This document shows, piece by piece, positions 385 to 55,029 of a DNA stretch of 64,000 nucleotides (position 1 is the stretch's first letter; each line of letters opens with the position of its first letter). The stretch covers positions 52,187,502 to 52,251,501 of the forward strand of contig OZ023214.1 of the NCBI GenBank assembly GCA_963995525.1. Reading direction: 5' to 3'. Below the pieces are notes generated by a model. The model was not told the DNA's origin. It made no database searches and saw only the letters and a list, made by a program, of their open reading frames with translations. The DNA comes from Escarpia spicata (taxonomy: Eukaryota > Annelida > Polychaeta > Sabellida > Siboglinidae). The position numbers were made by a program, and so were the translations under genes.

Positions 385-1810
385 GGCCTACACGTCACAT
401 GTTGCTGCATTGGGGTAGTGTCACCTATACATCTGGGGCCAGTTTCATGAAGCGGCTAAGAACGTTCTTAACGCTAAGATGATTGTCTTAGTAAATGACA
501 TGATTTTTTCAATATAAGCGAACATAGGAGTTTACGCAAACACGTGATGCTAAGTAATTGCGTAACTTCAAGTACGCTTCATGAAACCGGCCCCAGATGT
601 GCTGTTTACATCGTGTGTCGCTGCATCAGAGATGGTGTCTCCTATGCATCTGACATGTTGTTTGCGTCTTGTCTTGCTGCCTCAGAGATGGTGTCTCCTA
701 TGCATCTGACGTGTTGTTTGCGTCATGTCTTGCTGCTTCAGAGATGGTGTCTCCTATGCATCTGACGTGTTGTTTGCGTCATGTCTTGCTGCATCAGAGA
801 TGGTGTCTCCTATGCATCTGATATGTTGTTTGCGTCATGTCTTGCTGCTTCAGAGATGGTGTCTCCTATGCATCTGACGTGTTGTTTGCATCATGTCTTG
901 CTGCATCAGAGATGGTGTCTCCTATGCATCTGATGTGTTGTTTGCGTCATGTCTTGCTGCATCAGAGATGGTGTCTCCTATGCATCTGACGTGTTGTTTG
1001 CGTCATGTCTTGCTGCATCAGAGATGGTGTCTCCTATGCATCTGACGTGTTGTTTGCGTCATGCCTTGCTGCATCAGAGCTGGTGTCTCCTATGCATCTG
1101 ACGTGTTGTTTGCGTCATGTCTTGCTGCATCAGAGGTGGTGATTCCTATGCATCTGACGTGTTGTTTGCGTCATGTCTTGCTGCCTCAGAGGTGGTGTCT
1201 CCTATGCATCTGACGTGTTGTTTGCGTCATGTCTTGCTGCCTCAGAGGTGGTGTCTCCTATGCATCTGACGTGTTGTTTGCGTCATGTCTTGCTGCCTCA
1301 GAGGTGGTGTCTCCTATGCATCTGACGTGTTGTTTGCATCATGTCTTGCTGCCTCAGAGGTGGTGTCTCCTATGCATCTGACGTGTTGTTTGCGTCATGT
1401 CTTGCTGCCTCAGAGGTGGTGTCTCCTATGCATCTGACGTGTTGTTTGCGTCATGTCTTGCTGCCTCAGAGGTGGTGTCTCCTATGCATCTGACGTGTTG
1501 TTTGCGTCATGTCTTGCTGCCTCAGAGGTGGTGTCTCCTATGCATCTGACGTGTTGTTTGCGTCATGTCTTGCTGCCTCAGAGGTGGTGTCTCCTATGCA
1601 TCTGACGTGTTGTTTGCGTCATGTCTTGCTGCCTCAGAGGTGGTGTCTCCTATGCATCTGACGTGTTGTTTGCGTCATGTCTTGCTGCCTCAGAGGTGGT
1701 GTCTCCTATGCATCTGACGTGTTGTTTGCGTCATGTCTTGCTGCCTCAGAGGTGGTGTCTCCTATGCATCTGACGTGTTGTTTGCGTCATGTCTTGCTGC
1801 CTCAGAGGTG
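385..1810. repeat. 56-bp minisatellite overlapping the terminal exon and 3' UTR
   Basis: About 23 units carrying ctgacgtgttgtttgcgtca and gaggtggtgtctcctatg. Units near exon 24 (1200-1800) are nearly identical; those below 600 are increasingly diverged. The exon-proximal unit contributes the last codons and the stop. A MITE interrupts the distal part. Confidence 0.93.
434..597. mobile_element. Short MITE inserted in a minisatellite unit
   Basis: Ends are inverted copies: acatctggggccagtttcat at the left and its near-perfect complement at the right. The interior is about 110 bp. On both sides the flank resumes the 56-bp repeat, marking insertion into a unit. It has no coding capacity; the superfamily is not determined. 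Confidence 0.75.
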
Positions 1811-1929
1811 GTGTCTCCTGTGCTCTCCCTGTCGATCTTGCGCTGCTCAGTCTCTATGTTCTCCCGAGTGATCTTCTTAGTGCTGAACACACGCACCGCA
1901 CTCACTTCTCCCTGGATAGCAGCTCGCAC
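1762..1929 (-). CDS. CLC exon 24 (terminal, residues 829-883 and stop)
   Basis: Encodes [19 protein letters not shown], completing CBS2, and a tail ending NNTSDA. The stop TAG (1764-1762) lies inside the first unit of the 56-bp minisatellite, so the last 18 residues or so are repeat-derived. Acceptor CTGTAG|GTG. I did not find a polyadenylation signal within the array. Confidence 0.9.
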   Translation of the reverse strand: MRAAIQGEVSAVRVFSTKKITRENIETEQRKIDRESTGDTTSEAARHDANNTSDA

Positions 1930-4900
1930 CTACAGCGGACAGGGCAGAGGAACGTACAGCATTACAACACACACACACGCACGCACACAGACACACATAC
2001 ACACCACATACACACTTCCCACACACATGCACACACCCACAAATGCACACACACATATCACCACCCCCCCACACACACACCCCCCCACACACACACCCCA
2101 CACCACACGCACCACACGCACCACACGCACCACACGCACCACACGCACCACACGCACCACACGCACCACACCACATACACCACACACCACACACGCCCCA
2201 CATGCCACACACACCCCACACGCCACATGCCACACACGCCACACACACCACAAACACCACACACAACACACACACCACACACAGGCACATAAGCACACAC
2301 ACACACACAAACACACCACATACACACTTCCCACACACATGCACACACCCACAAATGCACACACATACCACCTCCCACACACACACCCCACACACCCCAC
2401 ACACCACACGCCACATGCCACACACGCCACACACACCACAAACACCACACACAACACACACAGGCACATAAGCACACACACACCCCACACACCCCACACA
2501 CCACACGCCACACACACCACAAACACCACACACAACACACACAGGCACATAAGCACACACACACCCCACACACCCCACACACCCCACACGCCACACGCCA
2601 CACACGCCACACACACCACACACAACACACACAGGCACATAAGCACACACACACACAAACACACCACGTACACACTTCCCACACACATGCACACACCCAC
2701 AAATGCACACACATACCCCCCCACACACACACCCCACACCACATGCACCACACGCACCACACGCACCACACGCACCACACGCACCACACCACACGCACCA
2801 CACACCACACACGCCCCACATGCCACACACACACCCCACACGCCACACGCCACACGCCACATGCCACACACGCCACACACGCCACACACGCCACAAACAC
2901 CACACACCCCACACACCCCACACACCCCACACACCCCACGCATATCACACAAACCACACACGCGCACCATACACGCGCATACGTCCATGCACGCACACAA
3001 GCACACACACAACATTGAAAGATAAGCACACTGCATCTAAGAGTAGCATACGTAAATACTTGTGCTAACTTCATTACTCTTAGATGCTATTTCAGGTAGC
3101 TTCTATTACACAAATTGATGGAGACATGCACACAGTGCTGCTGACTGTAGAAGGCATTAAGAGAGACTGACCTCCTTGAGTGAGATGATGCCCACGAGAC
3201 GACCCATGTTGGTGACATACGCATGGTGCAGACTGAGCAGGGAGAACAGCGAGTGGACCTGGCAAACATGTCATCACACGTGTCAACTAGATGTCACTGC
3301 ACTTGTGTGTACCTTATAGAGGGATGTGTTGTATATAGCATGTGAATGAGCCATGTGTACTTTATAGAGGGATGTGTTGTATATAGCATGTGAATGAGCC
3401 ATGTGTACCTTATAGAGGGATGTGTTGTATATAGCATGTGAATGAGCCATGTGTACTTTATAGAGGGATGTGTTGTATATAGCATGTGAATGAGCCATGT
3501 GTACCTTATAGAGGGATGTGTTGTATATAGCATGTGAATGAGCCATGTGTACCTTATAGAGGGATGTGTTGTATATAGCATGTGAATGAGTCATGTGTAC
3601 CTTATATAGGGATGTGTTGTATATAGCATGTGAATGAGCCATGTGTACCTTATAGAGGGATGTGTTGTATATAGCATGTGAATGAGCCATGTGTACTTTA
3701 TAGAGGGATGTGTTGTATATAGCATGTGAATGAGCCATGTGTACCTTATAGAGGGATGTGTTGTATATAGCATGTGAATGAGCCATGTGTACCTTATAGA
3801 GGGATGTGTTGTATATAGCATGTGAATGAGCCATGTGTACTTTATAGAGGGATGTGTTGTATATAGCATGTGAATGAGCCATGTGTACCTTATAGAGGGA
3901 TGTGTTGTATATAGCATGTGAATGAGCCATGTGTACCTTATAGAGGGATGTGTTGTATATAGCATGTGAATGAGCCATGTGTACTTTATAGAGGGATGTG
4001 TTGTATATAGCATGTGAATGAGCCATGTGTACCTTATAGAGGGATGTGCGTTCGACCAGCTGGAATGGCGCTGGATCAATGTTACACTTCTCAAACTGCA
4101 CTGGTTGCTTCAGCTGGTACTGAATCCATGCACTCTCCTACAAACAGAAACTGAAAGTGTTATTCTATTTGCCAAGTTACCAAACATTATGCTCAGTAAT
4201 ACAAACAAAAAGTGTGTGTGTCTAAATAGAAGTAGATCTTCATAAAATATGTTCAAACAAAAATTGCCTTCTTGATAGGGAAATTGTTACTTAAAATATA
4301 CTGTGGCTGATGTTAGTTTGAAGTATCCCTACTAGCAATGAACTTGGAAGAACGTAGTAAGCTGGAAGACACAAATAAGGATAGTCTACCTACAGCGATA
4401 CAACTGCTGGGTGGTGACACAATTTAAACATCATCTCAACTTCTCTGGGAAGTATTCAGCCATGCTCAATTACTGCATGAAGATTATTTTGTACGCATAT
4501 ATCCACCACTGTCTACAGCCAGGTACTCATTGATACACCAGAGTGAACTGGAGCAATGTGGAGTGAACACAATTGTCCAAACATAGAACTATGACAAGTA
4601 TCGCTGTCCCCCCTACTATGACCAGTATCATTACTGTCCCCCCTACTATGAACAGTATCGCTAAGAGTGGACAATTTACATTTGATTCAAATGGTAACTA
4701 TTACTGAACATACCATTTCTGGGGTGATATCACCTTCTTTGATTGGAGTCTGAAACAAGGAATAAGAAATTAAGAAAACTGGAAGGAATACATTATACAT
4801 CTATAACACGCCGTATATCAGGGGGCAGGAAACTTTGAATGGGGCCAAACAATTGAGATGGACTAGGTCTGTGGGCAACATGTTTATTTATGAACATTTA

Positions 4901-7900
4901 TTATCATTCACCTAATCTTCATGGAAAATGGTATCATTAAAAATTATTATGTTACGAATGTAATTATATGCTGTCCGTTTAAGTTAAACTCACACATTTT
5001 GGCAGTATAGGCCTATAAGATTAAACATTGGTTTATTGTTATCAATCATTAAAGTGTAATTCTGAGTAGTAGTACCCAGTATTCATGGTCTGTGTTGTTG
5101 ATTAGTGTGCCGTTTGGTTTAGCTGCTGTGCCACTAAGTGCCCCACTTCTAGGTGCTGACTTGTTCTTGTGAGCTTCAGAACTTTGATTTGCAAAGGCTT
5201 TCAAGAGCATAAGCCTTTCCCATCAATGAAACAACTAATTTTGTTGTTTATACCATGGAAGCATGTTGTCATCCTGCGGGTCACATTGTGTACAATCTCG
5301 CTTTTGGTCCGTGAGCCGCATGATATGGCTTTGCGGGCTGCAGTTGGCCCATGGGTCGCAGGTTGCTGACCCCATTATATAGGAATATTTAGTAACAACT
5401 GCTGTGGTATTTCAAAACAGCGACACGATTATAGGAAGAAACATTTTCATGTCATATAACACACAAACCAAAATAACTAAACAATAAATCAATTCACTAG
5501 GTATTTACATAAGCATAATTAGTCTACATTTATTAAGTTAGAAATACATGTTTGTAATGGTATTTAAAAATGTTATAAACTTACCTTTGCTGTGAAATGA
5601 ACCTTTGCTCTATGCTCCAGATCTGCAAGAAGAACAAGTGATTACCTGCACAGCAGTACCTTCTCTACTTACTTAGCAGCCTGCTAAGTAAGTAGTACTG
5701 TACTTAAAGCAGTCTATACTGTACTTAAAGGGAATAAAAACATCTATTGCTTGAATTCATGTTATATTACATCCTGCTATCTATTTCCACGTCCACCAAG
5801 CCAAACAAATAAAAAAAATTCAATGAATTAGAAATTCCACATTTTATGCTGTGCATCCGGACATTTTCGAATATGCATATTTTTGGCACGCTTTTCGGGA
5901 TGCCGAGATGTGACGTCACTTATGACTCAAACTCGCATCAAGCCGACCCTTTCCATGCATTCAGAGCATGTTTACAAGGATAGCTTTTGGGTCGAAACGA
6001 GCTTCAAATTTAGTTATTGTGCGATATTCCGTTGTAATACAAACACTAGTCATCATAGAGGAACAAGCAGTTATCTTACGGTTCCACATGAATTAAATTT
6101 TATTCAAAACAACGAATGCGAATGGGCCTACCAGTCGACTAGGTTTCGCCGAGCTTGGGCTCGTTTTCAGAATAATTATATCGAATGCAACCAATGGGAG
6201 ATAATCTACACCAATAAACATACATAGCAAACATATATTGTATCCAGCTACATAAAGTAATGTGTATAATCTCATAATATCACTAGAATATCGATATATG
6301 AAGGAGTTGTACAATTTATCATAACAACTTAAATCAGTCAGAGAATTTCCGCTGGTCCCGATAGCTCAATTGGTTACTAGTCGTTTATTTTACAATCGGG
6401 CGACGCCGGTTTAATCCTGACAGCATGCAAACCTTTGATTTTCTTTACACTTTTTTTTTTAATCTTTTCACGAAGTAATATAAACAAAATCATTTTATAC
6501 TATAATGCACTGTTTGTAAATAATTTTTATTTTTGTAGTAATTATTTATTCGCCACAAAAATGAAAATATGGTCATTATATAACGATGTTTCTAAATTAT
6601 ATTTATCCAAACAAATGTAATGGATATATAATTTATTAATTGTAAATATATTGTACGGTAATACATTGTAATTATATACATGAAAACAGATTGAGATCTG
6701 TCTTGATAAATACAATTTAGAAACATCATTATATATAATGACCATATTTTCATTTTTGTGGCGAATAAATAATTACTACAAAAATTAAAAAAATATTTAC
6801 AAACAGTGCATTATAGTATAAAATGATTTTGTTTATATTACTTCGTGAAAAGATAAACAAAAAAGTGTAAAGAAAATCAAACGTGTGCTTGCTGTCAGGG
6901 TTGAACCGGCGTCGCCCGATTGTAAAATAAACGACAAGTAACCAACGCGCCTACCCACTGAGCTAGCGAGACCAGCGGAAACTCTGACTGATTTAAGTTG
7001 TTATGATAAATTGTACAACTCCTTCATATATCGATATTCTAGTGATATTATGAGATTATACACGTTACTTTATGTAGCTGGATACAATAGATGTTTGCTA
7101 TGTATATTTATTGGTGTAGATTATCTCCCATTGGTTGCATTCGATATAATTATTCTGAAAACGAGCCCAAGCTCGGCGAAACCTAGTCGACTTGTAGGCC
7201 CATTCGCATTCGTTGTTTTGAATAAAATTCGATTCATGTGGAACCGTAAGATAAATGTTTGTTCCTCTATGATGGCTAGTGTTTGTATTACGTCGGAATA
7301 TTGCACAATAACTCATTCTGACGTTCGTTTTGACCCAAAAGCTATCCTTGTAAACATGCTCTGAATGCATGTAAAGGGTCGGCCTGATGCGAGTGTGTGT
7401 CATAAGTGACGTCACGATACCACGTGATCGTCTAGCTCATTAAAATTTTATTTTCCGCTGGAATCGCTTCACAGATGGGCTTAAAATCGAATTTATACTA
7501 CAAATATATTTTTCTGTATTTGTTTAATGTTGTCAAATGTTACATACAATGTTAAACTTATTTCCTTTAAAGCAGTCTATACTGTACTTAAAGCAGTCTA
7601 TACTGTACATAAAGCAGTCTATACTGTACATAAAGCAGTCTATATTGTACTTAAAGCAGTCTATACTGTACACAAAGTAGTCTATACTGTACACAAAGCA
7701 GTCTATACTGTACTTAAACAGTCTATACTGTACTTAAAGCAGTCTATACTGTACTTAAAGCAGTCTATACTGTACTTGAAGCAGTCTATACTGTACTTAA
7801 AGCAGTCTATACTGTACATAAAGCAGTCTATACTGTACATAAAGCAGTCTATACTGTACTTAAAGCAGTCTATACTGTACACAAAGCAGTCTATACTGTA

Positions 7901-10900
7901 CTTAAAGCAGTCTATACTGTACTTAAAGCAGCCTATACTGTACTTAAAGCAGTCTATACTGTACTTAAAGCAGTCTATACTGTACTTAAAGCAGTCTATA
8001 CTGTACACAAAGCAGTCTATACTGTACTTAAAGCAGTACATACTGTACTTAAAGCAGTCTATACTGTACTTAAAGCAGTCTATACTATACATAAAGCAGT
8101 CTATACTGTACTTAAAAGCAGTCTATACTGTACTTAAAGCAGTGTATATTGTACATAAAGCAGTCTATACTGTACTTAAAGCAGCCTATACTGTACTTAA
8201 AGCAGTCTATACTGTACTTAAAGCAGTCTATACTGTACTTAAAGCAGTCTATACTGTACATAAAGCTGCTACAACATACTTAAGGTTTAACAGAAGTTAA
8301 AGCAGTGTGTCTATACTATACCTAAAGCAATGTACAATTGCTCTGCCAGGAAAGATTCTATGCTACCTGGAGACCGGAGAAGACACTGCTGTACTGAGTG
8401 GTGACTCACCTATGCCACTGGGTGACTTCTTCAAGATAGACCGTGGCTTTGACGGGTTACCTTCCCCTGAGTGATCCTTCAGGTGCTGAATCACACCAAC
8501 AACAGACTCAAATACAACAATGTCATCAACGGAACATTAATATACATCCACACATACACAGTGATTATGCTTAATTACTGCCTCTTGGTGATGTAGTTAA
8601 ATTTGAAACATTACGTAACGAGAGAACAGAGTATACAAAATAACAGTGCTATTATTTCTACAACTAACTCTATAAAACAAAACAACTACACTAATATAAA
8701 TGGGCCAAGAGGCCCTGAAGTTCTTTGGACTAATATGTCTATATGTGACCCCTGACCAAATGAGTGATAAGTCGGAAAAATTGTAACATTGTTTTCTTAC
8801 ATTCTTGTAAAGGTTGGGTAGGGTGCTTTACACGGTTTCAAAAATTATGACTGCTATAAAAATTGGTGAAGTTATGGAGCATTGAACATGGTAGGGGTCA
8901 AAAAGTGAAAATGAAGAAAATGGCTGTTGAAGTTTTACATTATATATGCAAATGGACTGCATGGAAATATTACATGCATGACATTCAAATGTGGCACACA
9001 GTGTGTATGTTATGTTGCAATGATACACTGGAAGTACAAATGTGCTGCTACAAAAACTTATCAAGTTATGCCAGATTATGTCTTTATGTGTAAAACTAAG
9101 TGGGCAGATTATTTGAGAGCAAAAGGTAGACTCAGTGTTTGACATAGTTTAAAACCTACAGGCAACTGTCCAGTTTAACAGGAGTCTATCAAACAATAGT
9201 AGGCACTACCACATGAAATGTCTACGAAAAATTAGAGAAAAAGTTACTGAACAGTTTTTGGAAAAAACAGCCCCACAGAACTAATTATAGTTATTGTTAA
9301 GATGTTTAACCTAGTTCTATTATCTGACATTGTGCCAACAGATTGGTGTATTGGGATCATTAAGCCTATATAATTATTATATAAACATAGCAGCAGACAC
9401 TGGGACAGTGTGACTGCTGCCCGGGTAAATGGATGCAATGGTGCTTTGAAGTTAGTTTGTCTGCCAACTATCCTTTTCACACAACCCTATAGGTTTAGTA
9501 GCTGCCAGCACACTACTGAGCCTAAACTACCAAGCAGGTGTGAAAAACGTAATTAACTGTCCACCAAGCAGTAGCAGAACAGTTTATAATAATAACAATC
9601 CACAAGTTAAGTGGCAGTGATCTTCCTTTTATTATTCATGTGATGTTTATTGTGAGCAGGGCGGACAAATGGTTATCATACGTAGACAGGTACAGAAAGA
9701 AACTGACGTTTTCTATAAAAAGAACACGTTTGCCTATCAATGACATGTATTTCCTATTGTTGCCGTATCTGCCGGGCAGAAACAGTTTCTGCCCGGCATA
9801 AATCAAACAACCCTGTAGGTAATTATTAATCAAATGTTTTTTTGGTAAATCATAGTTACAGATCATTAAGGGTTATGACGGAAGTAAAATGTTGACATGT
9901 TTACTGTTCACTTATTGCACCGCGTCTTGCATTTAGAGGAGTAATTATAATAGAAAATAAAATGTTGTGACACATTAAAAAAAATACATGTATTGATGAG
10001 AAACCGGGAATTACTTTTCTGTGACCTAAGAATAACTACTTTCAATTAACTTTCTGTTTATATAAAACAACTACATCAAAATATATATCCATACAAGACA
10101 CAGACTCCGCATGTGACAGATGTTTTGGGAAGGGGAATAGTGTTCTGTTTCTGGTACAGCAGTGTGTTGACCCAAGCCTCTGCCAGTGACCAATTACAGA
10201 TTAGTCACACTTTCCACCACCAGCCACAGTGACCCAAGTCTCTGCCAGTGACCAATTACAGATTAGTCACACTTTCACCAGCCAGCCACAGTGAGTTGTG
10301 ACAGATGTTGTGGGAAAAGGGATTAGTTGAACAAAAGGACTGGAAGCCTGCTAGATCTGCTGCTACAGTAGACCACTTAGTTAGCAAATTTAGCATTTTA
10401 GGGGACCTTTGGAGCCCTTAGAATGATTCAATCAAATACAAATTTATTGTGTACAGTGGCACTACCACATGAAATGTCTATGCAAAATTAGAGAAAAAGT
10501 TACTAGAGTTTTTGAAAAAATAGTCAAAATGTGAAAATTTACCAGTTTTTGGCCTTTTTGAGGGGGTCATTAGGTGCCCTTAGAATGATTCAATCAAATT
10601 TCTTTTGTACCGTGACACTACCACATGAAATATACATGGCCTGTATATATGCAAAATTAGAGAAAAAGGTGCTGAACGGTTTTTGAAAAAATTGACAAAA
10701 TATTAAATTTTTACCAGTTTTTGGGGTCTTTGGAGGCCCTAGGGAGCCTTTAGAATGATTCAATCAAATACAGATTTCTCGTGCATAGTGGCAGTGCCCT
10801 AAGATATGTCTATGCAAAATTAGAGAAAAAGTTGCTGAACGATTTCTGAGATACAGCAGCTAACGGCAGACGGCAGACGCAAAATGATGGCAATAGTCCC

Positions 10901-13900
10901 TTGGACCTTCGGCCAAAGGACTAAAAAGGTAACTTCTTATATTGCACGGTATCCAGTTCTTAGGACAGCTCAAGGTGCTTTACACTTTATTCCCTAGCAG
11001 ACCTGTTCAATCAAACACCTTCTCTTGGAAGCATTCTACCATGTTGCAATTACTGCCTAAAGACTATTCATATACAACTATCCACCACTGTCTACAGCCA
11101 GGTACTCATTCATACCATTGAGTAAACTGGAGCAATGTGAAGTGAATGAACTTGTCCAAGATTTGAAACAGCAGCAAGAGAATTCAAACATGGAAACTTT
11201 TGATTTGTTGTTCTAACCAATATGCTCCACAAATAACTGCTGAGACATACCTCTTTCTTCCATATCTCAGCCTCCTCCTCCTGTGCATTTGCCTCATCCA
11301 CCATGTATACAGCGAACCTGCCCGGGGAACTTGTCATGGGCTGCTGCAGACGTTCTAGGACTGGCAGCTACAGATACAACAACAGTTGTTACCACTCAAT
11401 GGCTGGCAGCTACAGATACAACAACAGTTGTTACCACTCAATGGCTGGCAGCTACAGATTCAACAACATTTGTTACCATTCAATGGCTGGCAGCTACAGA
11501 TACAAAAACAGTTGTTACCACTCAATGGCTGGCAGCTACAGATACAACAACAGTTGTTACCACTCAATGGCTGGCAGCTACAGATACAACAACAGTTGTT
11601 ACCACTCAATGGCTGGCAGCTACAGATACAACAACAGTTGTTACCACTCAATGGCTGGCAGCTACAGATACAACAACAGTTGTTACCACTCATTGGCTGG
11701 CAGCTACAGATACAACAACTGTTGTTACCACTCAATGGCTGGCAGCTACAGATACAACAATTGTTACCACTCAATGACTGGCAGCTACAGATACAACAAC
11801 AATTGTTACCACTCAATGGCTGGCAGCTACAGATACAACAACAGTTGTTACCACTCAATGGCTGGCAGCTACAGATACAACAACAGTTGTTACCACTCAA
11901 TGACTGGCAGCTACAGATACAACAACAATTGTTACCACTCAATGGCTGGCAGCTACAGATACAACAACACTTGTTACCACTCAATGGCTGGCAGCTACAG
12001 ATACAACAACAGTTGTTACCACTCAATGACTGGCAGCTACAGATTCAACAACATTTGTTACCATTCAATGGCTGGCAGCTACAGATACAACAACAGTTGT
12101 TACCACTCAATGGCTGGCAGCTACAGATACAACAACAGTTGTTACCATTCAATGACTGGCAGCTACAGATACAACAACAGTTGTTACCACTCAATGGCTG
12201 GCAGCTACAGCTACAACAACAGTTGTTACCACTCAATGGCTGGCAGCTACAGATACAACAACAGTTGTTACCACTCAATGACTGACAGCTACAGATTCAA
12301 CAACATTTGTTACCATTCAATGGCTGGCAGCTACAGATACAACAACAGTTGTTACCACTCAATGGCTGGCAGCTACAGATACAACAACAGTTGTTACCAT
12401 TCAATGGCTGGCAGCTACAGATACAACAACAGTTGTTACCACTCAATGGCTGGCAGCTACAGAAACAACAACAGCTGTTACCACTCAATGGCTGGCAGCT
12501 ACAGATACAACAACAGTTGTTACCACTCAATGGCTGGCAGCTACAGATACAACAACAGTTGTTACCACTCAATGGCTGGCAGCTACAGATACAACAACAG
12601 TTGTTACCACTCATTGGCTGGCAGCTACAGATACAACAACAGTTGTTACCACACAATGGCTGGCAGCTACAGATACAACAATTGTTACCACTCAATGACT
12701 GGCAGCTACAGATACAACATCAATTGTTACCACTCAATGGCTGGCAGCTACAGATACAACAACAGTTGTTACCACTCAATGGCTGGCAGCTACAGATACA
12801 ACAACAGTTGTTACCACTCAATGACTGGCAGCTACAGATACAACAACACTTGTTACCACTCAATGGCTGGCAGCTACAGATACAACAACAGTTGTTACCA
12901 CACAATGGCTGGCAGCTACAGATACAACAACAGTTGTTACCACTCAATGGCTGGCAGCTACAGATACAACAGCAGTTGTTACCACTCAATGACTGGCAGC
13001 TACAGATACTTCAACAGTTGTTACCACTCAATGACTGGCAGCTACAGATACAACAACAATTGTTACCACTCAATGGCTGGCAGCTACAGATACAACAACA
13101 GTTGTTACCACTCAATGGCTGGCAGCTACAGATACAACAACAGTTGTTACCACTCAATGGCTGGCAGCTACAGATACAACAGCAGTTGTTACCACTCAAT
13201 GACTGGCAGCTACAGATACAACAGCAGTTGTTACCACTCAATGACTGGCAGCTACAGATACAGCAACAGTTGTTACCACTCAATGACTGGCAGCTACAGA
13301 TACAGCAACAGTTGTTACCACTCAATGACTGGCAGCTACAGATACAACAACAGTTGTTACCACTCAATGACTGGCAGCTACAGATACAACAACAGTTGTT
13401 ACCACTCAATGGCTGGCAGCTACAGATACAACAACAGTTGTTACCACTCAATGGCTCGCAGCTACAGATACAACAACAGTTGTTACCACTCAATGGCTGG
13501 CAGCTACAGATACAACAGCAGTTGTTACCACTCAATGGCTGGCAGCTACAGATACAACAGCAGTTGTTACCACTCAATGACTGGCAGCTACAGATACAAC
13601 AACAGTTGTTACCACTCAATGGCTGGCAGCTACATATACAACAACACTTGTTACCACTCAATGGCTGGCAGCTACAGATACAACAACAGTTGTTACCACT
13701 CAATGGCTGGCAGCTACAGATACAACAACAGTTGTTACCACTCATTGGCTGGCAGCTACAGATACAACAACAGTTGTTACCACTCAATGGCTGGCAGCTA
13801 CAGATACAACAATTGTTACCACTCAATGATTGGCAGCTACAGATACAACAACAGTTGTTACCACTCAATGGCTGGCAGCTACAGATACAACAACAGTTGT

Positions 13901-34900: not shown

Positions 34901-37900
34901 CTTCATGACAATGAACACAACTCACCCTCGTGACAATGAAAACAATTCACCTTCATGACAATGAACACAACTCACTCTCATGACAATGACCATAACTTAC
35001 CCTCATGACAATGACCACAACTCACCCTCATGGCAGTGAACTTACCCTCATGACAATGAAGCAGATAAGAGTAAGGAAGATGTTGTTGGTAGGCCCGGCC
35101 CAGCGCTGCAATATCTCTTTCTCATTGACATTGAGATACACCGTCGGGTCTGACCACGTCACGTTGGTGAACAACTCATCAAGGGCCTCGCCATTGGTCA
35201 ACTGAAGTTATGTGATTCATGACCTCAGTCAGAGACAGTCCAGTTCAGCCTAGTTCATTTATTACATCTCTCAATCATCTGCACCAGAGGCTGTTTTACA
35301 TGCACTCACATGCATACAAAACAATAAACAAACAAACAAACAAACAAATACATAATTACCAAATTTAAACTTAATATTAACAAATACTTTTATGTGAGTG
35401 ATGACTAAGCTATAAAATAATTTATTATATATAATAATTATATTCAATAAAAATGTAACTTGCTATAGAAAACAATAAAACTAACAACTGTACATCAAAG
35501 CAGTGTTCAACATAAGTGCGGGCCTTCGCTATTATCTATTATCCTGTGTATACTATTTGAAATATGTCACATTCAATTTTAACGGTTCGTTGGTGAAAAT
35601 TCAAATTGCCAGCAATGCTTTGGACTTATAATATATATATATATATATATATACACTAGAATAACTATTTTTAAGGTATAACATAATTAAAATGACGGCA
35701 GCGATTTGACTGCTGGGATTGCTGGGCCTTCAAATCTTTATGTCGGCCCCACAATATTTTGAGGTTACAGGCCCGGTTGGCCTTTGACATTTTGAGCCTT
35801 ATGTCGAACACTGCATCAAAGTAGAATATATATATATACATATATATATATACATATTTACATATATACAGTGTCCATACAAGACACGTGGCACCACCTA
35901 CCCGCCCTGCATTGAACTGCCCCAGTCCGCCGGGGTAGTTCACTGTTGCAATGAGAAACATCACCGATGCTGGGAAGATGAAACGACTGGAGAAACACAA
36001 CACCACATGACACTGTTAGTTTTGTTTGTTGAAGAATCTCACCATCAGTCACTTCAGGCCATGCAATTATTGATGTCAGTGTTACATCATAGAGCATTTA
36101 AGAAGCTACACTTTATACAAAATGCTAAGTTCCTGTTAAACTCTATTATTGCCCTATATAGCTGATGCAGGAGGAGAGGAGGAGGAGGGAAGAAGGAGGG
36201 AAGGATGAGGGAAGGAGAAGAGGAGGAAGGAAGGAGAAGAGGAGGAGGGGAGGAGGAGAGGAGGAGGGGAGGAGGGGAGGAGGAGAGGAGGAGGAGCGAA
36301 GGAGGAGGGAAGAAGGAGGGAAGGATGGGGAAAGATAAGGGAAGGAGAAGGGAAGGAGAAGAGAAGGAGGAGGGAAGGAGAAGAGTAGGAGGAGGGAAGG
36401 AGGAGGGAAGGAGGAGAGAAGGAGGAGGGAAAGAGAAGAGAAGGGGGAGGGAAGGAGAAGGGAAGGAGGAGAGAAGGTGTAGGGAAGGAGGAGGGACGGA
36501 GGAGAGAAGGAGGAGGGAATGAGGAGGGAAGGAAACAGAGAACTTGCTTCTTCTGCAGGAAAGCCTTTAGTTTCTTCTGGCTTCGGATGAACGTCACAAA
36601 CTTGCGGTGCGTGTACACAAAGAGAGCGCCAGCGAAGCCACACGCAATACTGCAAGCAAACACCAACACTTGACAATAACATGAGTAGTGGATAATACTG
36701 CCAACAAACACCAATACTTGACAACAACATGAGTAGTAGATAATACTGCCAGCAAACACCAACACTTGACAACAACATGAGTAGTGGATAATACTGCCAA
36801 CAAACACCAACACTTGACAACAACATGAGTAGTGGATAATACTGCCAGCAAACACCAATACTTGACAACAACATGAGTAGTGGATAATACTGCAAGCAAA
36901 CACCAACACTTGACAACAACATGAGTAGTGGATAATAATGCCAGCAAACACCAATACTTGACAACAACATGAGTAGTGGATAATACTGCCAGCAAACACC
37001 AATACTTGACAACAACATGAGTAGTGGATAATAATGCCAGCAAACACCAATACTTGACAACAACATGAGTAGTGGATAATAATGCCAGCAAACACCAATA
37101 CTTGACAACAACATGAGTAGTGGATAATAATGCCAGCAAACACCAATACTTGACAACAACATGAGTAGTGGATAATAATGCCAGCAAACATCAATACTTG
37201 AGCAACAAAACAAGTAGTGGAAATTACTGCAGGTAAATATAAATAAATTACAGGTGTAGTGGAAAATAATACAAACACAAATATTGGATAATAATGAAAG
37301 CAATCACAAACAGTGAACAATATTGCATGTTAACACAAACAGTGAACAATTAAGATTGAGGAGGTATGCAGTGATATGCACTAAACACTATACAGTAGTG
37401 GTGACTCAGTGACTCAGTGAAGCCCGCACTTACCCAATGACACCAAAGGCAATCAGCTCTACAACATCAAATGGAAATTCCTGTCGTAGATTTGTCTTGA
37501 ACAGTGCTGTGATCGTCTCTGAAAGGAAACAGCCACATTGAACTACTCAGGTAAAATAGGGCGTGAATTCATAATAGCATCAGTGCATAAATACCCTCTA
37601 ATAAACCACTAAAAGGCTAAGTTTTTATACAGTGCAGTATCCAGTCCTCGGGACTGCTCAAAGCGCATTACACTTTACTCCCTGGCAGACCTGTTCAATC
37701 GAACACCATCTCGACTTCTCTGGGAAGCATCCAGCCACGCTGCAATTAATGCGCAAAGACTATTCATACACAAATATCCACCACTTGCCCAAGGTTCGAC
37801 ACCGCAGCACAGGATTCGAACCCGGGTTCTCTCAGTCGAGAATTTGAAGCTCTAGCTACTACACCACTGGTGTCTATACACTGGTCCTGCCATATTGAAA

Positions 37901-40900
37901 TGACTACAGTGCAAGTTAAGACGGCCAAACTTTTTCGTACATACCTTCACGACTGAAGATGATCGCAAGAATTCTGAAGACGAGGGCGCCACATACAGCT
38001 GAGTAGAATCCTCGCCAATAGTTGCGCACCGCAAAGTAGCTTGCTGTTACCTCAATGCTGAACAACACACCTGGCAAACAAACACACCAGTCTCAACACA
38101 CTGTTATCACAAATAAATGCATCAATCTAAACACATTTGTTGATGAATCCTGAAAATTATGTTAATATCAGCAACAAATATACATAAGACGGAATGGCTG
38201 AGAGCGTCACATGTGCTGCAGCCAGTTTATAAGCTTGATGGTTCTGGTTCATAGGCAACCAGCATCCAAAAGTCGGTGGTGTGTCTGTTTCATCACAATG
38301 GCGCTGTCTGTAATATCCTAATATCCTTAAGACATTAACATGATGTGGAAAAAACTTATGTTTCTGAAAACAGTAAATTTAAAATGTTGGTATTTATTAA
38401 ACAGCAAGCTAGTCGCTGTTGTCCCAAGGGATTCACCTCCGATGGGTGCAGCGAATGTACACGCGACCCCAACCGCACAAGCAGCTGCTAACATCTCATT
38501 GGTCCGTGATTCATTCTACAACACACGTATTACACAGTTTCAAACTGAGGCTTAACACTTTTACATGCACAAAATAATATATATTAACACTTTTACATGC
38601 AATATACATTAACACTGTTACATGCAACATATTTTAACACTTACACGCATTATACATTCGTCTCATTTTCTATCAATGTGCCTTTGTTTTGCAGCTTTGT
38701 TTAAACAACCATTAGTTACCTTAATCAGATTAACTACTACTAAATGGTAACACAATAGCAGTCAATGTTTCAAGTAGGCAACTTAAAGCTGCTGAAACGT
38801 TACTAAGATAAATCATATTGACAGTTTGTTGAACATCTTTAGAACGTGACGTTTAGTGTATTGATTTAAGCCATTTAACGTACTAAATGGTTTTTCTTGG
38901 CCAAAATTACATACAACACAAAAATAATAAATTATTTATTCAATCAGCAAGATAGTTTTGTGAAGACCAAACAAAATGGTTTGTTTTCAGACGAATCCAA
39001 TATCTCAATGCAGCAGGTTTGCTGATTACATGCCTGCATTAAGAATACAGTGTTGACATGATACTGAACAATAGTGGACTGACCTCATAGATGCCAGTCA
39101 CAGAAGTGATGAATTTACTCAGAAGAGTTGCTGTGATGCTGGCAACATGCACAAATGGACCCTGTAATAACAACATCAATATACCACGTGGTAAACAACA
39201 GTTACAAGATATATACAATTTTAGTAGCAGGTAAATTTATCTATCTTTGTAAATTTAATAACAATATTTGCGCAGAAATATCTGCAGGGCTAGCAACATA
39301 AAAAAAACAATGTATAACTGAATAAGTTTAGAGTTTCATGCACACATATAGCAAACACATGTGATGAGTTGGCACCAATCTTAAGACCCTCAAATCTGAA
39401 AGAAGAAAATTGCATGTGTACGTGATTTTAATCAAGTGAAAACATTTGCAACAGCAGAGTTATACTAAAGACTGAGTCTGTTTGCATGGTATGCAGGTAA
39501 CTCCTTAGTTTCACACGTTTTTAAGAAGGAATACATCTTGCCTCTTTGCCAATGGGCAGGCCACACCCTAGCGATGTACACAGTCCAATGATCTTGGCTA
39601 TGAGAGTGCGCAGTGTGAGGTATTCCTTGAGCACAACACCTCGCAGGATCGTCTTCATCTCAGGGATACCAGAGCCTGGCAGCACAAACAAATCAAACAG
39701 CAATGATTCAATTAATAATATTATATAATATGTTATGAATCTACGTTTAATTAATATGTGCTATTTTTGAAGTTCACATTTCTCTCTCATAGATGACATT
39801 TTGTTGAAACACTGACATTTCATCCAATACTGTCTATGATTTTATAATCTTAAAGGTTGGCAAATTACTCCAGAACAAGATACTCTAAAAAGTGTCCTAC
39901 AAGCTACATGACCCTACACCCTCTGAACCTGCTAACAACATCTGGGACTGAAAGCAATAACTTACCTATTGCATTAGGTCCGACGAGATGAACAAAGCCA
40001 GAGGAGAAACAGATGAGTACAATGGGAAATAATATCCATAGCACGAACTGTAAGACTGGCATACCCTCCGATGAGTCATATAGCCACTTCCTCGCTGAAA
40101 CACAACAACCAATAGAGTCAATATCCACAGCAGGAACTGTAAGACTGGCATACCCTCTGATGAGTCATATAGCCACTTCCTCGCTGAAACACAACAACCA
40201 ATAGAGTCAATATCCACAGCAGGAACTGTAAGACTGGCATACCCTCCGATGAGTCATACAGCCACTTCCTCGCTGAAACACAACAACCAATAGAGTCAAT
40301 ATCCACAGCAGGAACTGTCAGTCTGGCATACCCTCCGATGAGTCATACAGCCACTTCCTCGCTGAAACACAACAACCAATAGAGTCAATATCCACAGCAG
40401 GAACTGTCAGTCTGGCATACCCTCCGATGAGTCATACAGCCACTTCCTCACTGAAACACAACAACCAGTAGAGTAAATATCCACAGCAGGAACTGTAAGA
40501 CTGGCATACCCTCCGATGAGTCATACAGCCACTTCCTCACTGAAACACAACAACCAGTAGAGTCAATATCCACAGCAGGAACTGTAAGACTGGCATACCC
40601 TCCGATGAGTCATACAGCCACTTCCTCGCTGAAACACAACAACCAATAGAGTCAGAAACAAGAAGAACCAACAAACAACAAGAGCCAAAAACAACATGAG
40701 CCAAAAACAATAAGAGCCAATTATAAGACATCAACTTCAGTGGAACACCATGGCGCATTGGCTAGCACGTTGACTAGAGACTGTCAATCAAGAGAACCTG
40801 GGTTCGAATCCTGTGCTGCGGTGTCGAACATTGGGCAAGTTCGTTCACTCTATGTTGCTCCAGTTCACTCAGCTGTATGAATGAATACCTGGCTGTAGAC

Positions 40901-43900
40901 AGTGGTGGATATTTGCTTACAAATAGACTCTGTGCATTAATTATAGTATGGCTGAATGCTTCCCAACCCCAGAAATGTCAAGATGGTGTTTAATTGAACA
41001 GATCTGCCAGGGAGTAAAGTGTAAAGCACTTTGAGCAGTCCTGAGGACTTTTACTTTTTTGCAGACTCTGTAACTTGTTAACAATAACACACAAGATATT
41101 TCCTTAAACATACAGCATCACTGAGACAGTGCGGTCTCTACCATATCTTCATACATGGATGATAACTTGTTAACATACAAGATAATAACTTGTTAACACA
41201 CAAGATATCTCCTTAAACATACAGCATCACTGAGACAGTGAGCTCCTTACCATATCTTCATACATGGATGATAACTTGTTAACATACAAGATGATAACTT
41301 GTTAACACACAAGATATCTTCTTAAACACAGAGCATCACTGAGACAGTGAGCTCCTTACCATATTCGCATACATGGATGATAACTTGTTAACACACAAGA
41401 TGATAACTTGTTAACACACAAGATATCTCCTTAAACATACAGCATCACTGAGACAGTGAGCTTCTTACCATATCCGCATACATGGATGATAATTTGTTAA
41501 CATACAAGATGATAACTTGTTAATACACAAGATATCTTCTTAAACATACAGCATCACTGAGACAGTGAGCTCCTTACCATATCTTCATACATGGATGATA
41601 ACTTGTTAACATACAAGATAATAACTTGTTAACACACAATATATCTTCTTAAACATACAGCATCACTGAGACAGTGAGCTCCTTACCATATCTTCATACA
41701 TGGATGATAACTTGTTAACATACAAGATAATAACTTGTTAACACACAAGATATCTTCTTAAACATACAGCATCACTGAGACAGTGAGCTCCTTACCATAT
41801 CTGCATACATGGATGATAACTTGTTAACATACAAGATAATAACTTGTTAACACACAAGATATCTTCTTAAACATACAGCATCACTGAGACAGTGAGCTCC
41901 TTACCATATCTTCATACATGGATGATAACTTGTTAACATACAAGATAATAACTTGTTAACACACAATATATCTTCTTAAACATACAGCATCACTGAGACA
42001 GTGAGCTCCTTACCATATCTTCATACATGGATGATAACTTGTTAACATACAAGATAATAACTTGTTAACACACAAAATATCTTCTTAAACATACAGCATC
42101 ACTGAGACAGTGAGCTCCTTACCATATCTGCATACATGGATGATAACTTGTTAACATACAAGATAATAACTTGTTAACACACAATATATCTTCTTAAACA
42201 TACAGCATCACTGAGACAGTGAGCTCCTTACCATATCTTCATACATGGATGATAACTTGTTAACATACAAGATAATAACTTGTTAACACACAAGATATCT
42301 TCTTAAACATACAGCATCACTGAGACAGTGAGCTCCTTACCATATCTTCATACATGGATGATAACTTGTTAACATACAAGATAATAACTTGTTAACACAC
42401 AAGATATCTTCTTAAACATACAGCATCACTGAGACAGTGAGCTCCTTACCATATCCGCATACATGGATGATAACTTGTTAACATACAAGATAATAACTTG
42501 TTAACACACAAGATATCTTCTTAAACATACAGCATCACTGAGACAGTGAGCTCCTTACCATATCCGCATACATGGATGATAACTTGTTAACATACAAGAT
42601 AATAACTTGTTAACATACAAGATCTCTCCTTAAACATACAGCATCACTGAGACAGTGAGCTACTTACCATATTCGCATACATGGATGATAACTTGTTAAC
42701 ACACAAGATAATAACTTGTTAACACACAAGATCTCTCCTTAAACATACAGCATCACTGAGACAGTGAGCTACTTACCATATTCACACTTGTGGATGATAA
42801 AGTCCATGACGTAACTGAGGAGTGCCATGATGACGCCAAGGATGGTCAGAAATATCCAGTCTTCTCCAACTTTGGATATAACAATGTTGTGAAACGATCG
42901 ACAACATTCTGAAAGAATAAGGGGAATTATAATAATCCCCGACAATTTAAACTTTTGTTTGTGTCAATGCACTTTGTGAAATCTATTGTTATACAATGAT
43001 ATGATATAAAGGAGAGGATTATTTGCAAAATATCCATCCAGAAACAACAGTTTTATTGTTTGAATTATAAAATATAATTTATCTAATTTTTCCCATTCTC
43101 CTTACATGCCAATGATGCCATACACTGTGATATACTGCCTATACATTAATATTTATATTATAAAACAATACAGTTCTCGGTCTGTTTGTCTGTCTGTGGA
43201 CCCATATCTCTGTCACTTTTGCATATATGGGGCAGAAATATTGTATGTGAGGCAGAAATATTCTATGTTATCTGACAGGCACATATGGGTGGTTCGCAGA
43301 TTTAGATTTTTTTAAATTCATCTTGGCAGAAAGCTGTACTATAATTGATAAATATTATGTTTGAAGAATGTTACTAACGTTGTATGGTCTTTGTACGACT
43401 GGTGTGGTGAGCGTAAAGTCCTTTTGGGATGTCTTCTTTCTTTGACTGGCGAAGTAGCTGTTTCACTTGCATAGACAGGTCGCGGCTGTACTGGCCGTAC
43501 ATCTGTAACAAGACAATCTTACTCAGGTGTTTTACTTGCATAGACAGGTCGCGGCTGTACTGGCCGTACACCTGTAACAAGACAATCTTACTCAGGTGTT
43601 TCACTTGCATAGACAGGTCACGGCTGTACTGGCCGTACACCTGTAACAAGGCAATCTTACTCAGGTGTTTCACTTGCATAGACAGGTCGCGGCTGTACTG
43701 GCCGTACACTTGTAACAAGGCAATCTTACTCAGGTGTTTCACTTGCATAGACAGGTCGCGGCTGTACTGGCCGTACACCTGTAACAAGGCAATCTTACTC
43801 AGGTGTTTCACTTGCATAGACAGGTCACGGCTGTACTGGCCGTACACCTGTAACAAGGCAATCTTACTCAGGTGTTTCACTTGCATAGACAGGTCGCGGC

Positions 43901-46900
43901 TGTACTGGCTGTACACCTGTAACAAGGCAATCTTACTCAGGTGTTTCACTTGCATAGACAGGTCACGGCTGTACTGGCCGTACACCTGTAACAAGGCAAT
44001 CTTACTCAGGTGTTTCACTTGCATAGACAGGTCGCGGCTGTACTTACATCTGTAACAGGACAGTTGTACTCATAATAATAATAATTAAAGTGTTAGATCA
44101 ATGCTGTCTGTTCTGTAAACCAGAATTAGCATTCAGAAGGGGTAATTATTAACAATCATTTTACTGAATCAGTGATTTCAAGCATCTTAGAGAATGGGCA
44201 GAACATCAAAGGGCATTGCAGAAACTCACTGACAATCACGACTGCCAATATAGCATGTTTAGAACCTGAATGTTCACATGGGTCGTCCATACAGCATGCC
44301 ATGCCTAGGTGGGTGGGGACATTGGGGGTCACCAGGTTAGTGTTACAAAGTGATACATGAGAGTGTGAGAATATCCGAGGAAGCGTTACACAATGATTAA
44401 TTATATTAGTTATTATATAGATGTACTTTATTGTATGTGTGATTTATGAGTCAACACAGTTACGCAACAAGTTAAAAACAAAATTGATGTCTCTATAAAA
44501 TATAATAGATGGAAGGTCTTTCTCAAAACAATCGTAAATATAGGGGGGTGTACCGGCCGGCATTGTGAAGTGTTACAAGGGGGTGAGTGGTTCTCAACAA
44601 GTCCCAATTTAGTGTTACATACTACATGGGTGGCTCCTAAATTTGGAACATTCTGCTGTCGAAATATTTAAATTGTGTACATTGTTTCATGAGCACTAAG
44701 TAAATATAATTTGGAGACGAGTATGTTTTCAACATATATTTATTGTAGTATTAAGAACATCATAATTTGTTTAATGTGTCCCAAATAGACAGCCTATGTT
44801 GAATAATTATTTTGCAAGGCATAACAATACCCCATAACACGACACCAACACCACTGCAGACATTATGTGAAATCATGGCATCTACCTTAAGTAGTTCCCA
44901 GACATTGAAAAGTATTTAAATAAAAATGCAAATACTTTTGACATTTCAAATGCAAATTCAAATACATTTTGTTTGTGTCAAATGCAAGTACTTTTCAAAA
45001 GTATTTCAAATACTTTTCAAATACTTTTTTAATTCTCTTGACATCCATAATTAAGGGAGTTCATTGAGTCAATAATACCATGCTATAATTGGTCACACAT
45101 TGTTAAATTTTCCCCCTGTGACAGGTTAATCCTGTTTTCCATTTCCTGTGCCCACTGGTGCACTAAACTATGACACTGTATTCCAATAAAATTAGATCAG
45201 GCCACCCACTGTTAATTAAAGGCTTATGCCTCGGTGATCACATAAGTAACATGAGTGACCTGTATCAACTGCCTGGACCAAGCAACAATTTCATTAAGCA
45301 CAGCGGTGATAACAATTTTCACTGACAGAATTAAATGCTATAAGTATTAGAAAAGTATCTGAAAAGTATTTGATTTTTCAAAATACTTTTTAAATATATT
45401 TAAATGCAAATACTTTTGGCTCCACATTTTCAAATGCAAATACTGGATCAGTCGCATTTAAATGCATTTTAATGCATTTGCCCCCATGTCTGGTAGTACA
45501 TTGTGTTAGAGTGAGAACTTGTTACATATTATTTGTATACATATATATATATATTGTGAACCAATCGAAAAATGGGCACAGTTGTCAGGTTATACCTACA
45601 AAGTCACTGTTGATCAAATGTTGTATAAATTAAACCACTACCCATAAAACAGTATTTGGTTTCTCTTAGTAATCATTTAGGTGAATTTATTTCTTTGTTT
45701 CTACAACTTTAGTTGCCACCACCTAATGTAAGACTTGTAACTCAACTGTCATCTAAACAAATAATTGAAGACAGTATCTAAGCTCTAATTTAAGACTTGT
45801 AACTTAACTGTCATCTAAACAAATAATTGAAGACAGTATCTAAGCTCTAATTTAAGACTTGTAACTTAACTGTCATCTAAACAAATAATTGAAGACAGTA
45901 TCTAAGCTCTAATTTAAGACCTGTAACTCAACTGTCATCTAAACAAATAATTGAAGACAGTATCTAAGTTGAAATTAAAAAGCAGACTGGTCCGAGAGGC
46001 TGATAAGTCTAACAGTAACAACTGTTTCCAAGTAAAGCATGGTGAAGTGGCATAATCAAATTTATAAAAACATAATAGGACTGACTGAAATTGAGTGTGA
46101 AAACAGCGAATTCTTCCTATTGTCCTTGAATGATCTAAATTCAGCCTTAAAAAGTTCAAAAGGCATAATTAGATCGATGTCACTGCGACATCACTGATGA
46201 GGGCATCTATTTTACACAAATACTAATTGTCTGGATAAACCTAACTTTATTCAGTACCCCTTATAAGATATAGTCTAACTAAAATGTCAAAGGTAAACAA
46301 GCAAAGAAGAATAAACTCTAAAAGTAGAGAGGTCAAAGGTGTCACGTGACTCATTGGACAGAGCGCCTAATTCTACCAACTTGTTAAAACATCATACTAT
46401 CTCACTTGATAGGCTAAACTGTTACATAAAACTTACACTGTATAAAAACAGAATAAAAAGTTCACATAGGAATTTGTTTTAATTTATTGCCATGATAGTT
46501 GTTATCGAGACATTAACAAGCGAAGTTGACATTTCGATGAAAATTATGTTATGTCTCCACAGGCGCCTAACTCGGCCATCTTCGGCCGCCACCGGGTGTT
46601 TACAAATTCATTTCCGCACACTCCCACTTCACATAAAATTCCGCCAATCAGACAGTTTGTAAGAGGAGATGTTCGGCTTCAATCTGACTTTGCTACCGTT
46701 TCTATGCATCAGACGATGGTGAATCACCAACAATTTGAAGTTTTCAAAGTTAATTATTTTAAAGAATTTGAAGATAGACAAAAATAGTAGGAATCTATGT
46801 AGTTTCTGTGATATTAAATCTTTCTAAATATATTTGTTTTCAGTACCATGTTATATACAACAGCACGCAGATTTGGCATCAAAGTGATGCACCCTCTGAT

Positions 46901-54826: not shown

Positions 54827-55029
54827 TAAGAGACGGTCATTTACCATCCCACCCGTCCTACCCACGAGGCTCCTTTGAAGATCTTGTTCCAGGAACAGAC
54901 CCGTTACTTATCAGAAGGCGTGAAAAAAGAACCTGGAAATATTTGACCAATGAGGTGTTGTTGTTTTCTTGTGTCAGTGCGGCGAGTAGTGTTTTGCTTT
55001 AGGGGTAATGTAGGTGATGACGTGGTGAT

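Follow-up and report, generated by a model that had tools for sequence, protein, structure and literature searches.

The question raised by the stretch of Escarpia spicata DNA analysed here (the window, 64,000 nucleotides in all, on contig C11 of a 1.06-Gb assembly) is why the splice junctions of a single gene, predicted to encode a ClC-2-type chloride channel, lie so often inside minisatellites, and whether they do so more often than chance alone would bring about. Arrays were called by Tandem Repeats Finder and then compared with the modelled exons, the copy numbers being those of one assembly. Eight minisatellites with units of 25–109 bp straddle splice junctions of the gene, namely the acceptors of exons 2, 4, 10, 15a and 18 and the donors of exons 3, 12 and 22. 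That is to say, 8 of its 47 junctions lie inside arrays, and both boundary types are involved (five acceptors and three donors). A ninth array carries the stop codon and no splice junction. The arrays are as follows:

43459..44044, minus strand: acceptor of exon 2 (43379-43502), 69-bp unit, 8.5 copies, 44 exonic bases
41085..42781, minus strand: donor of exon 3 (42777-42908), 109-bp unit, 15.6 copies, 5 exonic bases
40031..40654, minus strand: acceptor of exon 4 (39966-40094), 89-bp unit, 7 copies, 64 exonic bases
36646..37230, minus strand: acceptor of exon 10 (36548-36649), 48-bp unit, 12.2 copies, 4 exonic bases
34290..35060, minus strand: donor of exon 12 (35046-35201), 25-bp unit, about 27 copies, 15 exonic bases
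29968..31649, minus strand: acceptor of exon 15a (29849-29973), 40-bp unit, about 42 copies, 6 exonic bases
11361..14503, minus strand: acceptor of exon 18 (11251-11367), 42-bp unit, 75 copies, 3.1 kb, 7 exonic bases
3306..4048, minus strand: donor of exon 22 (4033-4137), 48-bp unit, 15.5 copies, 16 exonic bases, open frame throughout
599..1823, minus strand: end of exon 24 (coding 1762-1929), 56-bp unit, 21.9 copies, last 62 coding bases and the stop, running on downstream

Seven of these arrays had been named in the initial annotation, and all seven (A2, D3, A4, A10, D12, A15a and D22, where A stands for acceptor and D for donor) were found at the named junctions, while the eighth (A18, 42 bp x 75) had been overlooked and the unit of D12 is 25 bp, not about 26 bp. 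The arrays had also been said to start at the exon boundary; their association with junctions stands, but the exact start does not, as they straddle the boundary, and the exonic part of each unit, which adjoins the splice site, is 4–64 bases long. Similarly, the end of exon 24 does lie within an array as claimed, but the feature there is the stop codon. About 41% of the gene consists of tandem arrays: collapsing each of them to one unit reduces its 41873 bases to 24585. As a separate observation, the exon 18 array abuts a different array at 14503/14504, so that one intron (11361-16224) holds 75 copies of 42 bp and 39 copies of 45 bp side by side.

The arrays had been described as sharing no unit sequence, with the junction as their sole common factor, and this is borne out by a comparison of 15 units, eight from the ClC-2-type gene and seven from the ClC paralogues treated below: the only match, 10 bases long, pairs a ClC-2 unit with one from a paralogue. 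When the units were searched against the seven gene sequences and loci L053 onward, 264 matches fell in their own arrays and two elsewhere, the latter being 17–18 bases long each and both coming from one unit of paralogue p5. A dispersed or introner-like origin of the units found no support within the same sequences.

Since one copy stays beside the exon, a duplication straddling a junction is tolerable, and some junction arrays are therefore to be expected. In the first null model (the seed null), arrays were collapsed to one unit and a unit-length seed was placed anywhere in the collapsed gene, seeds lying wholly within an exon or engulfing one being rejected, which corresponds to random origin plus purging; in the second, each array was kept within its own intron. 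Under the seed null, 2.19 of the 27 arrays in the ClC-2-type gene would be expected to span a junction and 8 do so (P = 8e-4); for the 14 large arrays the expectation is 1.32 and the count again 8 (P = 1e-5). The within-intron null gives P = 0.008 to 7e-5 over four thresholds. The window had been chosen for its arrays, and the fair test is therefore that on the six other ClC genes (p1–p6; 71 exons, 142 junctions), whose exons were found with a ClC-2 protein profile and paralogue–paralogue comparison and whose splice sites were placed with a matrix trained on ClC-2. At the loosest threshold of the seed null, 8 of 44 paralogue arrays are spanning against 3.22 expected (P = 0.012); further thresholds give 7 of 25 against 2.38 (P = 0.007) and 5 of 16 against 1.63 (P = 0.017), and the large arrays 5 of 13 against 1.33 (P = 0.006), while the within-intron null yields P = 0.003–0.018 at four thresholds. 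Some weak cases in p2, p3 and p5, where the repeat has about two or three copies, are lost at the stricter thresholds and the excess persists, large junction arrays being present in p1, p2 (two), p4 and p5. When the large arrays of all genes are pooled, 13 of 27 are spanning, compared with 2.64 expected under the seed null and 3.95 under the within-intron null. Junction arrays are thus commoner than random origin plus purging predicts, in the ClC-2-type gene and in the unselected paralogues alike, and the earlier suggestion that junction-centred duplication is favoured is supported to the extent that the excess is measured over a null already allowing for tolerance and appears under two nulls.

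It could still be argued that there is no junction bias, i.e., that births are random, that exonic ones are purged while straddlers survive by means of their working copy, and that the window represents the extreme tail. The exonic overlap is as wide as random seeds would make it (4–64 bases), the window was selected as extreme, arrays fill about 41% of the gene, and none of the seven arrays of p6 is spanning, all of which accords with this account; but it is the seed null itself, which is exceeded in the six unselected paralogues (5/13 and 8/44, as given above), and the within-intron null is exceeded as well. We regard it as rather unlikely. The arrays that do not span a junction were also counted by their collapsed distance to the nearest one, p5 introns over 6 kb being excluded: the pooled density per kb is 0.93 at 0–50 bp, 0.71 at 50–100 bp and 0.70 at 100–200 bp, and farther out it is 0.32 at 200–400 bp, 0.39 at 400–800 bp and 0.43 beyond. 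The value at 0–50 bp is driven by the ClC-2-type gene (3.12 per kb). The pooled pattern is centred on exon edges, and its exact shape is not settled.

The explanation we prefer, and consider probable with moderate confidence, is that the arrays are "mirages", that is, junction-straddling tandem duplications which are born or fixed more often at and near exon edges and of which the exon-proximal site is used. In such a process, short segments lying over an exon–intron junction would be duplicated in tandem in a genome that forms minisatellites very actively, and births (or fixations) would be commoner at or near exon edges than deep within introns. The array would then expand into the intron and be homogenised as other minisatellites are, while the coding sequence would be kept by the exon-proximal copy, serving as the splice site in use, and the remaining copies would leave with the intron. 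The excess would accordingly reflect birth rather than retention. The opposite has to be considered, i.e., that arrays are born at random and survive longer at junctions, since deletions running into the exon get purged. Such retention would yield an excess without any birth bias, and it agrees with the high array density just within the introns of the ClC-2-type gene; on the other hand, arrays that have survived longer are older and should be more degenerate, and this weakens it, because the spanning arrays are no more degenerate than the rest (median match 93.5 against 89, P = 0.20, in a small sample of 12 and 21). Retention alone seems to us an improbable cause.

As for the copies of the splice sites, the eight ClC-2 arrays hold 194 extra ones with AG or GT intact in 185, and all 15 arrays of the ClC genes hold 273 with the dinucleotide intact in 258; in the exon 10 array, AG is lost in 5 of 11 extra copies. 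The initial annotation had allowed that redundant splice sites might be selected. They would then serve as landing pads, making splicing more efficient or yielding alternative isoforms. The 258 intact dinucleotides in 15 arrays would fit this, as would the arrays A2, A10 and D22, through which the exon frame stays open (three of the four ClC-2 arrays whose unit length is a multiple of three), but the mismatches tell otherwise: constraint on the dinucleotides was not detected, 11 of 528 of their bases being mismatched (2.1%) against 414 of 13351 other bases (3.1%; Fisher P = 0.24) in 13 of the 15 arrays. Likewise, the exon 10 array contains copies without AG, only four of the eight ClC-2 units have a length that three divides, so that a bias towards frame-preserving lengths is not clear, and a Ridgeia protein, predicted and known here as protein only, crosses A2, D3, A4, A10 and D12 insert-free. 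Selection for redundant sites is therefore not sustained, and we hold it to be very unlikely.

Under the preferred explanation, by contrast with selection for many sites, one site per array would be used. Reading the exon frame into the array leads to a stop within 0–24 codons in five of the eight cases (A4, A15a, A18, D3 and D12), and the units of A4 and A15a would in addition shift the reading frame. The real sites tend to outscore the mean of their own copies, both in the ClC-2-type gene (Wilcoxon P = 0.012) and in all 15 arrays (P = 0.037). The simplest reading of these sequence features is that the exon-proximal site appears to be used, with the array spliced out together with the intron. 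A mini-exon model, in which each unit would bring a complementary splice site, is weak, since the nine shuffle tests for a donor-like site in acceptor units gave P = 0.04–0.53, uncorrected.

The same type of array recurs outside the window gene and its close counterparts. Myosin loci were sampled by taking 20 loci from 78 matches, 19 of which had the match inside the locus with flanking sequence, and the match ends were taken as exon edges. Arrays made from exon sequence occur in two myosin loci. At the myosin donor of L070 and L073, the exon ends in SNPIME followed by GTATGA, and 21 copies of a 52-bp unit holding that end run on into the intron; the exon is presumably the P-loop exon. At L069/L074, a 49-bp array encodes TKALYTRLFDFLVS and then GTAAG; we take TKALYTRLFDFLVS to be a myosin motif, and as the exon was not reached, this is only a probable junction array. 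At L058 an AT-rich 13-bp repeat extends two bases into the myosin match, and at L062 a 9-bp repeat ends 58 bases before the match there. Locus L075 on C6, which looked repeat-like in the match table, was rejected as a further case: it consists of two alternative exons about 0.7 kb apart (SGESGAGKTENTKKV...) and is array-free, the pair presumably being myosin P-loop exons. In G000:C3 (55.5-56.5 Mb), C238, C580 and C659, the scores of several myosin matches are equal or almost so, which suggests recent gene copies or unplaced haplotigs. In paralogue p5, which we take to be ClC-3-like, an 8.6-kb array fills one intron (L049-L050, p5 coordinates 12538-21118) with about 62 copies of a 138-bp unit or about 93 of a 92-bp unit, and it stops about 45 bases short of an exon.

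The recurrence also bears on the idea that the assembly has produced false tandem copies near exon edges. The copy numbers do depend on one assembly, yet the copies diverge from the consensus of their own array at about 1–10% of positions, the contig is of chromosome scale (61 Mb), and the same anatomy is found at independent loci on other contigs, which leaves an artefact hardly credible.

Several results weigh against the mirage explanation. In the comparison of the 12 spanning with the 21 intronic arrays, neither homogeneity (P = 0.20) nor length (P = 0.47) differs significantly, and with no difference in age or length, frequent birth and long retention are not separated. The exon models of the paralogues are similarity-based and incomplete; p6 has 0 spanning arrays of 7 at the loosest threshold; and in the paralogues alone the intronic zone at 0–50 bp is not enriched, with one array in 6400 bases. 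None of the 19 myosin loci has a clear array at its match ends, by which the splice sites were approximated, and the chaperonin locus L076 on C13 has two ordinary exons (2 of 46 matches) that are array-free. In 4 of the 15 arrays (A4, p1, p2 D1 and p2 A10) the copies score higher on average than the real site, in one the two are equal, and the matrix used for scoring ClC-2 was trained on paralogue sites which had themselves first been chosen with the ClC-2 matrix. The insert-free Ridgeia protein, a gene prediction, lends weak support to the use of the exon-proximal site. The genome-wide comparison of array ends with splice junctions that had been proposed at the outset is represented here by seven ClC genes together with a small number of myosin and chaperonin loci. 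On the whole, the observation made in the initial annotation is confirmed, and its interpretation is partly supported.

The amphioxus "mirages" to which it had referred do exist in print (PMC3087553, PMC3902484). Tandem repeats lie over the exon–intron boundary, 5′ and 3′, in amphioxus Adh3 and in the globins BflGb6 and BflGb9, with splicing reported as regular (PMC3087553), and PGBD5 has mirages at 5′ and 3′ sites, Adh and troponin C being mentioned as well (PMC3902484). Their units range from 10 to about 160 bp and many keep AG or GT (PMC3087553, PMC3902484), while BflGb6 has 3–6 copies and each globin gene is affected at one boundary (PMC3087553). The tubeworm units resemble them in spanning the boundary at donors and acceptors, in keeping AG/GT at many but not all sites (258/273), and in consisting of local junction sequence, with no dispersed element in the sequence searched. 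They differ in that the host is an annelid, that eight splice junctions are involved in one gene, that there are up to 75 copies as against the 3–6 of BflGb6, and that the excess has been tested statistically.

Two other systems can be compared. In the creation of introns from tandemly duplicated AG/GT proto-splice sites (Rogers; Gao and Lynch; Zhuo et al.; cited in PMC3087553), splice sites are copied in the same manner, whereas the tubeworm arrays lie within introns between conserved exons and show no new intron. Intron 1 of earthworm metallothionein contains an ordinary high-copy intronic minisatellite (PMC12783039), which is alike in its copy number and its annelid intron and unlike in that inclusion of a splice junction is not reported in the passages available. 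A mirage in an annelid was not found in the literature searched by titles and passages, most subscription papers being outside this search. The main text of the Ridgeia genome paper makes no mention of minisatellites or satellites, and its passages on tandem repeats and introns are silent on junction arrays; in the Paraescarpia genome paper, tandem repeats, introns and satellites are nowhere mentioned. Within the searchable literature, therefore, mirages have so far been described in amphioxus only.

A broader proposal treats exon–intron junctions as a general hot spot of mutation at which minisatellites are born in tandem-repeat-active animals, mirages having arisen independently in chordates and annelids. 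This would include a link to transcription, splicing or exon-edge chromatin and would feed intron growth and splice-site turnover; it is possible, and we put it forward only tentatively. Occurring in an annelid at a measurable excess, mirages become a candidate for a general way in which DNA is duplicated around junctions and introns are lengthened. At the same time, every array amounts to a natural experiment on splice-site choice, with up to 75 near-identical acceptors in competition, of which the exon-adjacent one would yield the conserved protein. Junction arrays may also disrupt gene annotation: the match to the predicted Ridgeia protein ends after exon 14, directly ahead of the exon that bears the 40-bp array in the window gene.

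The gene and its two remaining exons of interest are located as follows:

1762..50077, minus strand: ClC-2-type chloride channel gene, coding exons 1-24 and alternative 15b, from the spliced frame and similarity to human ClC-2 and Ridgeia
49988..50077, minus strand: exon 1 (ATG ... CTT, followed by GTAAGC), from tblastn of the Ridgeia N-terminus, E = 1e-14
21960..22078, minus strand: exon 15b, alternative to 15a in the same phase, no array over its edges

Exons 2–24 were built from conserved peptides and splice signals, and exon 1 could be located because the Ridgeia protein supplied the N-terminus. The frame is open from exon 2, giving 854 residues with 15a and 852 with 15b, and every modelled intron is GT-AG except for two GC donors (exons 5 and 10). 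Human ClC-2 (7xf5) aligns to residues 30–813 of the 854-residue model (E = 2.5e-240), and the voltage-gated chloride channel domain PF00654 has two matches within the window. With near full-length ClC-2 similarity and this domain, the gene is intact and of ClC-2 type, and its product is a predicted channel. Exons 15a (29849-29973) and 15b (21960-22078), both on the minus strand, are alternative versions of one channel segment with both flanking phases equal; to judge from the sequence they look mutually exclusive, and of the two, 15a alone has an array at its acceptor.

Among the best 120 of 7057 protein matches, the top one is Ridgeia piscesae NP493_1244g00035, with 96% identity over 59% of the query, followed by Capitella (57%), while the top Branchiostoma matches reach 51–52%. 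The Ridgeia match places the host near vestimentiferan tubeworms (Siboglinidae, Annelida), and an amphioxus or cephalochordate origin of the window is ruled out by the comparison with Branchiostoma. A foldback element (5910-7415) lies in the intron that separates exons 19 and 20; its 434-nt arms are 95% complementary, and it has two further nested arm pairs. The open stretches at 47423-47860, 55000-57300 and 59000-61600 resemble, by eye, decayed reverse transcriptase of long interspersed nuclear elements (LINE).

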